Source: a virus. Taken from it: a stretch of 24,855 nucleotides of DNA. A model generated the notes under the pieces. The model did no database searches and was not told the origin of the DNA. It was given only the letters and a program-made list of their open reading frames with translations. Shown here piece by piece: positions 8,323 to 24,527 of the stretch (position 1 is its first letter; each line of letters opens with the position of its first letter). Position numbers and translations under genes: made by a program. Location of the stretch: the IMG/VR virus record IMGVR_UViG_3300032092_000234, positions 1 through 24,855 of that record; one strand, given 5' to 3'.

Positions 8323-9033
8323 ATGACACAACTGACCCTGACGAATGCCGCGCTGCCGCAATACAGCATGACCTTGCCCGTATCGGACATCACCACAAAA
8401 TTCAGACCCTTTGTTGTCAAGGAGGAGAAAATCCTCCTCATGGGTCTACAGTCCAAAAACATCAATCAGATCAACGATGCCATGCGGAATGTGATCCTTG
8501 CGTGTACCAACAACACGGTGGACACCCGCAAACTGTGTGCTGCGGACGCAGAATACGCTTTCTTGCAGATTCGCTCCAAGTCTGTGGGTGAAGAAGTCAA
8601 GCCGCAGGTGACTTGCACCAACTGCGGCAAAGAAACCACCATCAAGATCAAACTAGATGAAATCACCATCAAGCCCATGACCAAGCCTGTGGTGGACAGC
8701 AATATCAAAATGACTGACAGTCTCACCGTGGTCATGCGCTATCCGTCCATCCACGACATTGACTACAACAAAACTGAAGTAGAAATTGCATTTGATCTAG
8801 CCAAGCGGTGCATTGAATCCGTTATTCTCAATGAGCAGGTGTATCAGGTAAAGGACATCAATCCGCAAGAACTCACGGATTTTGTGGACAATATGCTACC
8901 AGAGCAGTTTTCCAAGATCATGGATTTCGTACAGAGTGTACCTGAACTCACATACGAATTTCAGTACCCGTGTCCGCAATGCTCGGAAACTGTAAAGATA
9001 CAACTGAAGAGCGTATCTGATTTTTTTCGGTAG
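8323..9033 (+). CDS. gp26: Baseplate hub protein gp26-like, likely tail assembly chaperone
   Basis: This 236-residue protein resembles T4 gp26 (208 residues; T4 baseplate family): it opens TLTNAALPQYSMTLPVSDI, then FRPFVVKEEKILLMG, then a helical region with ADAEYAFLQIRSKSVGE. Two CxxC pairs, at residues 98/101 (CTNCG) and 217/220 (CPQCS), are placed to bind one zinc ion. The gene lies directly before a gp51-like frame and the tape measure, the position of tail assembly chaperones in other long-tailed phages. It ends ...SDFFR-stop, and its last codons TTT TTT are part of a T_TTT_TTT slippery heptamer (9021-9027). A -1 shift would give a 297-residue protein carrying the gp51-like tail. Confidence 0.85.
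   Translation: MTQLTLTNAALPQYSMTLPVSDITTKFRPFVVKEEKILLMGLQSKNINQINDAMRNVILACTNNTVDTRKLCAADAEYAFLQIRSKSVGEEVKPQVTCTNCGKETTIKIKLDEITIKPMTKPVVDSNIKMTDSLTVVMRYPSIHDIDYNKTEVEIAFDLAKRCIESVILNEQVYQVKDINPQELTDFVDNMLPEQFSKIMDFVQSVPELTYEFQYPCPQCSETVKIQLKSVSDFFR
9021..9027 (+). other. Slippery heptamer for a probable -1 ribosomal frameshift
   Basis: Seven T residues are read in the gp26 frame as T TTT TTT, the X XXY YYZ form needed for simultaneous -1 slippage. The zero frame ends two codons later (CGG TAG). The -1 frame has a TGA ending exactly at 9020 and is open from 9021 to 9212. A possible stimulating stem pairs GGTAG (9029-9033) with CTACC (9062-9066), helped by CCC and GGG inside, though the spacer of 1 nt is shorter than usual. 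Confidence 0.65.
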
Positions 9034-9068
9034 CCCTCTGTCATAACGACTTGGGGGCGTACTACCAA

Positions 9069-9215
9069 ATGAACTTCAACCTCATGCAGCACCACGGGTA
9101 TTCCCTTGCCGAATTAGAGGCAATGCTACCTTGGGAACGAGAGGTATACATACAAATGCTTATTTCTCATCTCAAACGAGAGCAAGAAAAAGCAAACAAC
9201 CGAAAACCCCTGTGA
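9069..9215 (+). CDS. gp51: gp51-like segment, probably made as the C-terminal part of a gp26 frameshift fusion
   Basis: From the ATG at 9069 this frame encodes 48 residues, opening MNFNLMQHHGYSLAELEAML and PWEREVYIQML, then a charged helix. The HHGYSLAELE...PWERE pattern is like the short frame next to gp26 in T4-like phages (called gp51, a hub assembly catalyst) and like the frameshifted extensions of tail chaperones. No ribosome site precedes this ATG (the G-run at 9053-9057 is poorly placed). The frame is already open from 9021 and the upstream codons (ALCHNDLGAYYQ) look like coding sequence. I therefore favour production by -1 frameshifting at 9021-9027. Stand-alone translation is the alternative. 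Confidence 0.7.
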   Translation: MNFNLMQHHGYSLAELEAMLPWEREVYIQMLISHLKREQEKANNRKPL

Positions 9216-9244: not shown

Positions 9245-11221
9245 ATGGCAAAGAAGATCGTCAGCGATAAACAGATGAGGCAGATGATGGCTTCCCGTCA
9301 AGAGCGGGTGGGCGGTCGCTTTGGTGGTTTGAAGCCTGAGTTCAAGACTCCTCCCGTTGCCGCTGCCAAAACTATGGCGACATCCAATGTAGCCGTAGCA
9401 GAGACAATTAATTTTCTACAGGCTATGCTTAATGAGCGGAAAGCGATGGGGATTGAGACTTCTGAACTAGAAGAGTATGTGGTTGGAACTGCTCAAAAGC
9501 AGGGTATGCGTTCGGTTGTTGAAACATTCATCGCAGAAAACCGTGAGCAGTTTAATCAAGACGATCCAGCAGGAGCGGCTGCGTATGAATTGATGAAGGA
9601 AGCGGTTGTGCTTTCCGAAGCGTCAATGAAAGCATCTTTTGATGACGCTAAAAAGATATACGCTCAACTACAGTTTATACGAAAGGTAGCAGCAAACGCA
9701 AAAGGCAAAAATGCCGCTCTTGCTAAACAGATGGAAGACATCATTGCGCCTGTTGAAGCGCAACTCAAGAAGCGAACATCCTTTGCTGCATTCATAAAAG
9801 ATAAAGCAGAATCATTCAAGAAGACACTACCTGAACGCTTGGCTGCAAAGGTTCCTGTTGTTGGTGGTCTACTGAGCGGATTCTTGAGGGATAAACGCGA
9901 AGCACAGGAAAGCATTGAAATGTTGTCTGGTCGGATACAGGAGAATGTATCCCGTGGTGGTCAACGAGGAACAGACCTAGACATTGGTGGTGTAGGATCG
10001 CCCCGTAGAGGTGGCGGAACCGGAATGATGGGCGGAACTCGCGCATCGGATATTCCAGGTCTTGATGTTGGTGGTGCAGGAAAAGGCATACCGTCAACAC
10101 TTGGTGCCATCTATAAAGAAGTCACCAAAATCCGCAGCATCATTGAAAGCAAATTTGCTCCTGTAGAAAGTGATGCCACAGAACTAAAAGCCCGCGAAGC
10201 AGAACTAGAAGGCAAGACCGGCGGCAAGGTTTCTGAAAAAGCAATCAAAATGGTAACAGGGGAAAAGGGTGGTGGCGGATTCCTGTCTTCACTACTGTCA
10301 AATCTGTTTGGTTCAGGTCTTGGTACGCTGCTTGCAAACGGACTTCTGGCTCTTGGTCCAATGATCATAGGAGCCATTGCAGCAATCGGTCCTGCACTCA
10401 TGGTAGCAATTGCAGGGCTTGGAACGGCTATTGCAGCCATTGGCAGCACACTGCTAACCGTTGCCATTCCTGCTCTAGTGGCTACTGTGGGAGCAGCCAT
10501 TGGTGGTGGCTTGGCGTGGCTCATCAACTCAGGAATTGATGCCATATTTGGCACAAACCTAGCAGAACTGATGATGGAAAAGGACACATATACATTTGGA
10601 GATGTTGACCGAGAAAACAAAATAGCAGAACAAGGCAAGGCTGCTGATGCGCGAATAGAGGCTCAACGCAACACACCCGAGTACATTGCAGCAATGTCTC
10701 AAGATCCGCGAATGCTCCCGAAACTGATCAGCGACAAAAAGATCACAGGATCACAGGCGTTGGATGCACTTGGTGCGTACGAATCAAAATATGGAGCAGG
10801 AGATGACACTGCCTCTATACGAAATCAAATTCTTCAAGTAGATCCATCGGCAACATCCACCAACATCGGAAAATTTGCCGCTGTGAATGCAGCACAGTCT
10901 GCAACCGCTGCTGCAACCATTCCTTCGGTGTCCGCAGGCACAGGATCCGCTGTGGCATCAGATCAAGCCACTACAGTGGGTGTTCTGTCTGCGTCCACGC
11001 CAAACACCACGGCAGGAAAGATGCTGAGTCAGTATTCCGCCGAACAAGCCGCGTTGAGCAGCGCACAGGCAGCGGGGACAGCGACCCCTGCGGGAACCGT
11101 AAACAACTCGTCCGTGAATACTCGCGTCAGCAATGTGGTGAACAACTTCAATGACGATCTGCGTATTCGCAACAACGAACCCACGCAGAAGCAGATGCAG
11201 ACCTTCTCGCTTGTACCGTAA
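9245..11221 (+). CDS. gp29: Tail length tape measure protein (gp29-like)
   Basis: The 658-residue product follows the gp26/gp51 pair, the standard place for the tape measure. The N-terminal half is helical and charged (residues 50-230). A Gly-rich stretch (about 235-280) precedes one long hydrophobic block at about 345-436 with several potential membrane helices (LLSNLFGSGLGTLLANGLLA, GPMIIGAIAAIGPALMVAIA and following). Such blocks are typical of tape measures, which enter the host membrane during DNA ejection. The C-terminus ends VVNNFNDDLRIRNNEPTQ, like other T4-like tape measures. T4 gp29 has 590 residues, and tape length sets tail length, so this tail may be slightly longer than T4's. 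GAGG lies 7 nt before the ATG. Confidence 0.82.
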   Translation: MAKKIVSDKQMRQMMASRQERVGGRFGGLKPEFKTPPVAAAKTMATSNVAVAETINFLQAMLNERKAMGIETSELEEYVVGTAQKQGMRSVVETFIAENREQFNQDDPAGAAAYELMKEAVVLSEASMKASFDDAKKIYAQLQFIRKVAANAKGKNAALAKQMEDIIAPVEAQLKKRTSFAAFIKDKAESFKKTLPERLAAKVPVVGGLLSGFLRDKREAQESIEMLSGRIQENVSRGGQRGTDLDIGGVGSPRRGGGTGMMGGTRASDIPGLDVGGAGKGIPSTLGAIYKEVTKIRSIIESKFAPVESDATELKAREAELEGKTGGKVSEKAIKMVTGEKGGGGFLSSLLSNLFGSGLGTLLANGLLALGPMIIGAIAAIGPALMVAIAGLGTAIAAIGSTLLTVAIPALVATVGAAIGGGLAWLINSGIDAIFGTNLAELMMEKDTYTFGDVDRENKIAEQGKAADARIEAQRNTPEYIAAMSQDPRMLPKLISDKKITGSQALDALGAYESKYGAGDDTASIRNQILQVDPSATSTNIGKFAAVNAAQSATAAATIPSVSAGTGSAVASDQATTVGVLSASTPNTTAGKMLSQYSAEQAALSSAQAAGTATPAGTVNNSSVNTRVSNVVNNFNDDLRIRNNEPTQKQMQTFSLVP

Positions 11222-16542: not shown

Positions 16543-16585
16543 ACCCTATGTTCATTTGTGCTGTGCTTGAACAGGTTTTTAACAG

Positions 16586-16658
16586 TGATCCTGACGGGAT
16601 TTGAACCCGTGTTCTCGCCGTGAAAGGGCGGTATCCTAGCCAACTAGACGACAGGACC
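16586..16658 (-). tRNA. tRNA-Glu (anticodon UUC)
   Basis: The 7-bp acceptor stem GGTCCTG/CAGGATC pairs fully (one G-U). The anticodon loop is CTTTCAC with anticodon TTC, and the T-arm is ACGGG-TTCAAAT-CCCGT. A73 is followed by CTG, so CCA must be added. The anticodon stem has one C-A mismatch at its outer pair. The 5' end touches the U-tract of the terminator at 16659-16690. Confidence 0.95.
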
Positions 16659-20602: not shown

Positions 20603-20621
20603 TTGTGTTTCCTTTGTATTG

Positions 20622-20694
20622 TGCCTTGGGCGGGAGTTGAACCCGCGACTTACGAATTAAAAGTTCGTTATTCTACCAACTGAATTACCAAGGC
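20622..20694 (-). tRNA. tRNA-Lys (anticodon UUU)
   Basis: Acceptor GCCTTGG/CCAAGGC is fully paired. The anticodon arm is ACGAA-CTTTTAA-TTCGT with anticodon TTT, and the T-arm is GCGGG-TTCAACT-CCCGC. A73 is followed by CAA, so CCA is not encoded. It sits 6 nt after the stop of the gene at 20701-20940. Confidence 0.96.
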
Positions 20695-20955: not shown

Positions 20956-21027
20956 TGCGGGTTGGGAGAATTGAACTCCCGTGACGGGTTTGGAAAACCC
21001 GCGTAATAGCCTCTATACGAAACCCGC
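20956..21027 (-). tRNA. tRNA-Gly (anticodon UCC)
   Basis: Acceptor GCGGGTT/AACCCGC is fully paired. The anticodon arm is CGGGT-TTTCCAA-ACCCG with anticodon TCC, and the T-arm is GGGAG-TTCAATT-CTCCC. A73 is followed by TTA, so CCA is not encoded. Its first base directly follows the TAA stop of the zinc finger gene. Confidence 0.95.
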
Positions 21028-22805: not shown

Positions 22806-22835
22806 GGGCTTTCCTCCAGTCCCTTATGTAGACCA

Positions 22836-22864
22836 ATAGAAAAGGGAGCCTTGCGGCTCCCCTT
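22836..22864 (-). terminator. Intrinsic terminator of the tmRNA gene
   Basis: On the minus strand GGGAGCC-GCAA-GGCTCCC (22861-22844) is followed by TTTTCTATT. The GCAA tetraloop and 7-bp G/C-rich stem make it strong. It ends the tmRNA precursor 38 nt before the next gene start. Confidence 0.88.
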
Positions 22865-22903
22865 TCAGCCCGTTCAGATGCGGGAGGGCTAGTCCCCACG
22901 GCT

Positions 22904-22945
22904 TCAAGCCGCCATTGCCAGTCTGTTGGCAATTATTGTTGCAGC
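22904..22945 (-). other. tmRNA proteolysis-tag reading frame
   Basis: The frame GCT GCA ACA ATA ATT ... GCG GCT TGA encodes AATIIANRLAMAA. The end (LAMAA) is close to the ALAA/AVAA degrons of bacterial tags, and the double Ala at the start is like alphaproteobacterial tags. The exact first codon is inferred from the AAACT just before it. Confidence 0.75.
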
Positions 22946-23027
22946 AGTTTTTTTAACGAGGATCCACCACACGCCTCGGGCATCTCCTGCTTCAGTACTC
23001 CGCACCAGTCGATTCCGAATCGACCCC

Positions 23028-23114
23028 TTATGTTTTGCCCCCGCTGCAAACGGAGGGCTTGACTGCGGGAAGAGGCGGGTGATGCAGTCACTCCGCATTC
23101 GCGCATCTGAGTAA
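23028..23114 (-). other. Spacer between the two tmRNA pieces
   Basis: These 87 nt lie between the 3' acceptor strand and the 5' acceptor strand. In two-piece tmRNAs this segment is cut out during maturation. It contains G/C-rich inverted stretches (CTCCGTTTGCAGCGGGGG and others) and no gene. Confidence 0.75.
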
Positions 23115-23180
23115 TGGAGTCGGGGGGAGTCGAACCCCCGTGCTGTATGCGTTTTCGTCCACGATCAACAATGCCGTAAG

Positions 23181-23187
23181 TATTTAG
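23181..23187 (-). promoter_or_regulatory. Possible late-type promoter of the tmRNA
   Basis: The minus strand reads CTAAATA overlapping the stop of the 23184-23585 gene. Transcription would begin near 23175, a few nucleotides before the acceptor piece, which fits a tmRNA precursor start. Confidence 0.5.
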
Positions 23188-23585
23188 GCTGGCTCTAGCA
23201 TTTCGTCTTCGCGGTACTGCCCTCTCCACGCAGCAAGAGGAATAAACAGGTGTCCCACCGTATCGTCCCACACCCACCACCCACCGCTGGCTTCTGCACA
23301 GTACAGCAGCATCTGTCCCTCTGTGGTGTCCTGACGCAACGCCAAGTTCCACAGGTAATGCTCCAATCCAATCATCCACCCTGAACCGTAGTACTCTTCG
23401 CTCAGGTCGCGCATGATACGCAGCAAGATTTGCTTATGGATTTCGCGGTCGCTTATCCGTCCGAGTGCGCGGTTTCCGCTTGGTGGCTTTTCGTTCAGTC
23501 TTGGCTTTGCCGAAAACAGCCTCCCAACCAGCGTCCCAAGCCACGCGATCAACCTTCCGATACGAGTCACCTTTTCCTGCGCCAT
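23184..23585 (-). CDS. Hypothetical protein with tryptophan-rich C-terminus
   Basis: The 133-residue product starts with a short amphipathic/hydrophobic helix and basic residues (RIGRLIAWLGTLVGRLFSAK), then a helical segment (SDREIHKQILLRIMRDLSEE) and a compact aromatic part (GWMIGLEHYLWNLAL, then GGWWVWDDTVGHLFIPLAAW). GGAAGG lies before the ATG. The N-terminal helix may bind membrane. No family recognised. It is followed directly by the tmRNA. Confidence 0.68.
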   Translation of the reverse strand: MAQEKVTRIGRLIAWLGTLVGRLFSAKPRLNEKPPSGNRALGRISDREIHKQILLRIMRDLSEEYYGSGWMIGLEHYLWNLALRQDTTEGQMLLYCAEASGGWWVWDDTVGHLFIPLAAWRGQYREDEMLEPA

Positions 23586-24436: not shown

Positions 24437-24450
24437 GGTAGTTTTGTAAA

Positions 24451-24521
24451 TAGGCGGTTCAGGTGTCGATCCTGAATGAACCTGGTATAAGCAGGTCTGC
24501 GAAGCCGTCCGCCCACCGCCC
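24451..24521 (-). tRNA. Probable tRNA-Ile (anticodon UAU), unusual T-loop
   Basis: Acceptor GGGCGGT/ACCGCCT pairs over 7 bp (first pair G-U). The anticodon arm is ACCTG-CTTATAC-CAGGT with anticodon TAT. The T-stem is TCAGG/CCTGA, but the loop is ATCGACA instead of TTCRANN. The D-stem is short (GCG/CGC), position 8 is G, and the total is 71 nt. Most features of a tRNA are present but the T-loop makes it less certain. Confidence 0.65.
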
Positions 24522-24527
24522 AGTGGT

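Follow-up and report, generated by a model that had tools for sequence, protein, structure and literature searches.

A putative programmed -1 frameshift joining gp26 to a gp51-like tail in an uncultured T4-like phage

The tail assembly chaperones of T4-like phages were identified by Vladimirov, Gautam & Davidson (Virology 2022;566:9-15). As relayed by papers that cite this work, T4-like phages include some with poly-T -1 signals in their TAC-N genes (PMC12846349) and others in which a short and a fused chaperone copy stand in for frameshifting (PRFect, PMC10885494). By these accounts the mechanism and the family are already known, since the citing papers credit the 2022 work with both the poly-T signals and the two-copy phages, and the contig described here is one more instance. 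The original prediction had presented a chaperone layout for a T4-like gp26/gp51 pair as something it did not know to have been demonstrated; on the same accounts, it was published in 2022. Our locus fits the chaperones so described, and we see no clear difference from them, this contig being that of an uncultured phage.

Several other systems offer points of comparison. Lambda G/GT, like this locus, pairs a short form with a -1 long form beside a gene in the tape-measure position (PMC5009743). The two differ in that the family here is PF12322 and the heptamer is poly-T. The lambda heptamer is G_GGA_AAG. The E. coli dnaX cassette shares a heptamer, an upstream Shine-Dalgarno-like element and a downstream hairpin (here predicted) with our locus, but it lies in another gene with another product and uses an A run rather than a T run. 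In T4 itself, gp26 and gp51 are homologues of the short form and the predicted fused form of this locus, although T4 encodes them in two divergent genes on opposite strands and the end of its gp26 has no heptamer. A 2016 review describes T4 as the exception among long-tailed phages (PMC5009743), and a 2010 study describes cyanophage gp51 as truncated (PMC3037559).

Reading frames and neighboring genes

The window, meaning the whole 24,855-nt stretch of DNA analyzed, contains the following features at and beside gp26.

8323-9033, + strand: gp26, short form (TAC-N), 236 aa, 0 frame; from PF12322, phrog_150 and predicted structure
9007-9015, + strand: Shine-Dalgarno-like stretch AAGAGCGTA, weak here (-3.3 kcal/mol) and stronger in most relatives; putative stimulator
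9021-9027, + strand: slippery heptamer T_TTT_TTT; from its phase, conservation and a synonymous null
9021-9215, + strand: -1 frame tail (gp51-like, TAC-C), stop at 9213-9215, fused product of 297 aa; from phrog_634 and alignment with gp51
9033-9058, + strand: predicted hairpin with arms 9033-9038 (GCCCTC) and 9053-9058 (GGGGGC); from folding z; putative stimulator
9245-11221, + strand: 658-aa ORF in the tape-measure position; from position only

Read directly from the sequence, the gp26 ORF ends in GAT TTT TTT CGG TAG. The heptamer supplies the 0-frame codons 9022-9024 and 9025-9027 and is followed by one further codon before the TAG stop at 9031-9033, three bases past its end. The -1 frame is closed by TGA at 9018-9020 and then open from 9021 to its stop, with the translation FFSVALCHNDLGAYYQMNF...KPL. 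Phase, distance to the gp26 stop and the opening of the -1 frame are all as originally claimed. The predicted products are 236 aa without a shift and 235 + 62 = 297 aa with one.

The gp26 protein matches Pfam PF12322 (T4_baseplate, E 1.2e-55), a profile that stops at the junction, and also phrog_150 in PHROGs, a family that itself extends into the -1 tail. For the tail the match is phrog_634 ('baseplate hub assembly catalyst', gp51; E 8.8e-25), beginning at the second residue, before any ATG is reached. The locus thereby shows what characterizes the T4 gp26/gp51 family, namely PF12322 in the short form and homology between the tail and the C-terminal part of gp51.

The contig is T4-like, because the flanking genes encode head closure, DNA end protector, tail tube, tail lysozyme, wedge and single-strand binding proteins. 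In relatives, a long ORF starts a median of 5 nt after the tail. The claim that the next gene is the tape measure is a positional one: a long ORF does follow, it matched no Pfam or PHROGs family, and from its position it is probably the tape measure. Elsewhere in the window, on the - strand, ARAGORN identified a permuted (two-piece type) tmRNA gene at 22813-23205 with the tag peptide ANRLAMAA, also matched by Rfam RF04321 at 22904-23175 (65.3 bits against a cut-off of 47), and tRNA genes for Glu(ttc) at 16585-16658, Lys(ttt) at 20621-20694, Gly(tcc) at 20956-21027 and Ile(tat) at 24450-24522, three of the four reaching the Rfam tRNA cut-off.

Conservation of the slippery heptamer

The -1 frame tail was found wherever the region was covered in 78 IMG/VR relatives, with tail homology beginning at the heptamer. 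When the set was widened with an alignment-based scan and with named phages, it came to 165 single-copy loci whose gene end is complete; these fall into 101 groups that share less than 80% nucleotide identity. The original prediction had proposed that heptamer and phase be checked in related T4-like phages; an in-phase heptamer (87 TTTTTTT, 77 TTTTTTC and 1 TTTTTTA) with a gp51-like tail in the -1 frame was retained in 165 of 165 loci. The 0-frame stop falls 0 or 1 codon after the heptamer in 155 of these and up to 12 codons after it in the others, so the heptamer persists even at loci with a displaced stop.

With amino acids and codon use held fixed, a slippery site is expected with a mean synonymous probability of 0.43 per locus, and the product of these probabilities is not a p-value because the loci were partly picked by homology and are related; the site was observed in all 101 dereplicated loci. 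Comparable dipeptides elsewhere in the same genes take the form NNT TTT in just 103 of 327 instances. The heptamer site is thus much more T-rich than synonymous codon use predicts. Given this excess and conservation in every single-copy locus examined, the heptamer is not there by chance; a fortuitous poly-T run was ruled out by conservation and the synonymous null together.

Sequences flanking the heptamer also depart from synonymous expectation. Across the family, anti-Shine-Dalgarno pairing upstream is in excess and is strongest in 9-mers whose first base lies 15-16 nt ahead of the heptamer (z about -12), and the first 16 downstream codons fold more stably than synonymous recodings (mean z -2.9 in this contig's clade and -1.4 elsewhere; later segments give about -0.3 in the same comparison), both signals being statistics over related sequences. 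This contig combines a weak Shine-Dalgarno-like element with a strong hairpin 5 nt past the heptamer; a covariation check of the hairpin revealed no compensatory changes. From these patterns we infer that the upstream element and the hairpin act as frameshift stimulators.

Alternative routes to the tail

We considered whether the tail could instead be a separate small protein, initiated at ATG 9069 (or TTG 9051) in the ordinary way or by coupling. Many public records do list gp51 as a gene of its own that starts internally, and the original remark that ATG 9069 has no ribosome site needs softening because in this contig a G-run (9054-9058) lies 10 nt upstream and could pair with the ribosome (predicted anti-Shine-Dalgarno pairing, -8.4 kcal/mol). 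The remark otherwise holds: the G-run has a long spacing to the ATG, lies inside the predicted hairpin and is not conserved. Among relatives, a ribosome site accompanies the first ATG in 6% of loci and the first start codon of any kind in the tail in 1%, versus about 75% at gp26 starts. Initiation at ATG 9069 would also lose 16 conserved residues and would leave the conserved heptamer unexplained. The codons ahead of the ATG, which had looked like coding sequence in this contig, are most variable in relatives at third positions of the -1 frame, the pattern of coding sequence. The locus has a C-terminal domain in the -1 frame, conserved from the junction and without initiation of its own, which together with an in-phase heptamer near the end of the short gene characterizes a chaperone pair made by -1 frameshifting. 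Comparison across the relatives thus indicates that the tail is not an independent gene, and we regard its separate initiation as very unlikely.

Seven consecutive Ts, present in this contig and in 87 of the 165 loci, might also let RNA polymerase slip, so that transcripts with altered U counts would encode the fusion without ribosomal frameshifting. The other 78 loci, however, have only six Ts, usually too few for efficient polymerase slippage, and selection on a Shine-Dalgarno-like site and on downstream structure suits ribosomes instead; polymerase slippage is accordingly a most improbable source of the fusion. The report that cyanophage gp51 lacks its first ~200 residues (PMC3037559) could be taken to mean that the T-run and overlap arose by chance or by annotation artefact and that the -1 tail is left over from a decayed gp51. 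Yet the missing residues are those that gp26 supplies through the frameshift, and every locus has an intact, conserved tail. Because this tail begins at the junction at every locus and aligns within T4 gp51, we rejected a truncated or decayed gp51, and the probability we attach to this explanation is negligible. Ribosomal frameshifting at T_TTT_TTT, producing a chaperone pair of gp26 and gp26-51, is as a whole very probably correct.

Proposed chaperone forms in one gene or two

When the predicted structure of gp26 (mean pLDDT 86) was compared by VIA-align, the HK97 tail assembly chaperone 2ob9 came first, a moderate match (Z 7.2 over 84 residues; next chain Z 2.3). Foldseek found no significant match to this model in the PDB, and no relative turned up when solved structures were searched by sequence. 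The HK97 match is supportive and not conclusive, because Foldseek alone gave nothing significant. A model of one Tevenvirinae gp51 predicted without an alignment was poor (pLDDT 43) and was discarded.

T4, a Klebsiella phage, Aeromonas phage 25 and an Erwinia phage each encode gp26 on one strand and gp51 on the other. The abstract of the 2022 chaperone study reportedly names T4 genes 26 and 51. Genes of both types match PF12322, giving two copies in these two-gene phages, whereas each of nine named phages bearing the heptamer has one. T4 gp26 stops at the junction and T4 gp51 runs through it; a profile of the predicted frameshift fusions aligns across the junction of T4 gp51, the tail profile starting at residue 200 of 249. 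In a tree, Tevenvirinae gp26 proteins form one group and gp51 proteins another, and none of the Tevenvirinae gp26 gene ends examined carries the heptamer. On these comparisons, Tevenvirinae gp26 corresponds to the short form and gp51 to the fused long form. Since gp51 aligns through the junction as a fused form and the gp26 model matches HK97, gp26 would be a chaperone like lambda G (TAC-N) and gp26-51 its GT-like counterpart (TAC-NC), in keeping with the chaperone layout originally proposed and with the conserved heptamer, phase and -1 tail.

We infer that slippage takes place, and at a rate such that most ribosomes terminate at 9031 to give the 236-aa short form, while a minority would move back by one base on T_TTT_TTT and continue to 9215, giving the 297-aa form with its gp51-like tail. 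On the model of lambda G/GT, gp26 would be the tail assembly chaperone of this phage: its short form would coat the tape measure protein, its long form would recruit tail-tube subunits, and neither would stay in the virion. T4 gp51 is needed for assembly and missing from the final particle (PMC3004832). In T4 and other Tevenvirinae, gene 26 would supply the short form and gene 51 the fused one.

Loci without a heptamer were those with the two forms on two genes and, in addition, one group made up of the Ackermannviridae and Vibrio phage K362, where a single gp26 precedes a conserved -1 frame tail resembling gp51:

L093, 2277-2450: heptamer-less -1 tail
L207-L224, around 2802: heptamer-less -1 tails
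L092, around 2173: heptamer-less -1 tail

The gp26 ends of this group contain no canonical X_XXY_YYZ heptamer; that of Ackermannviridae reads ATT TTC ATY TAA. Ribosomes may slip there at T_TTC, or reinitiate at TAATG where it is present. The possible additions of our computational analysis to known work are the Shine-Dalgarno-like stimulator, the downstream hairpin and the heptamer-less Ackermannviridae. That they amount to a dnaX-like cassette across phages, with Shine-Dalgarno-like element and hairpin swapping between clades (weak element and strong hairpin in the clade of this contig), and a fusion without a canonical heptamer in Ackermannviridae, is a tentative proposal that we think somewhat doubtful.

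Public records leave the conserved -1 tail unannotated in ACG-2014h (L081, 1501-1686), S13 (L085, 1501-1677) and Aeh1 (L091, 1501-1674). Following the 2022 work, annotation errors are indicated in many marine T4-like genomes, in which the -1 tail was missed or given an internal start. Also following that work, and not from this contig alone, these phages provide a clear case in which one gene with a frameshift alternates with two separate genes.
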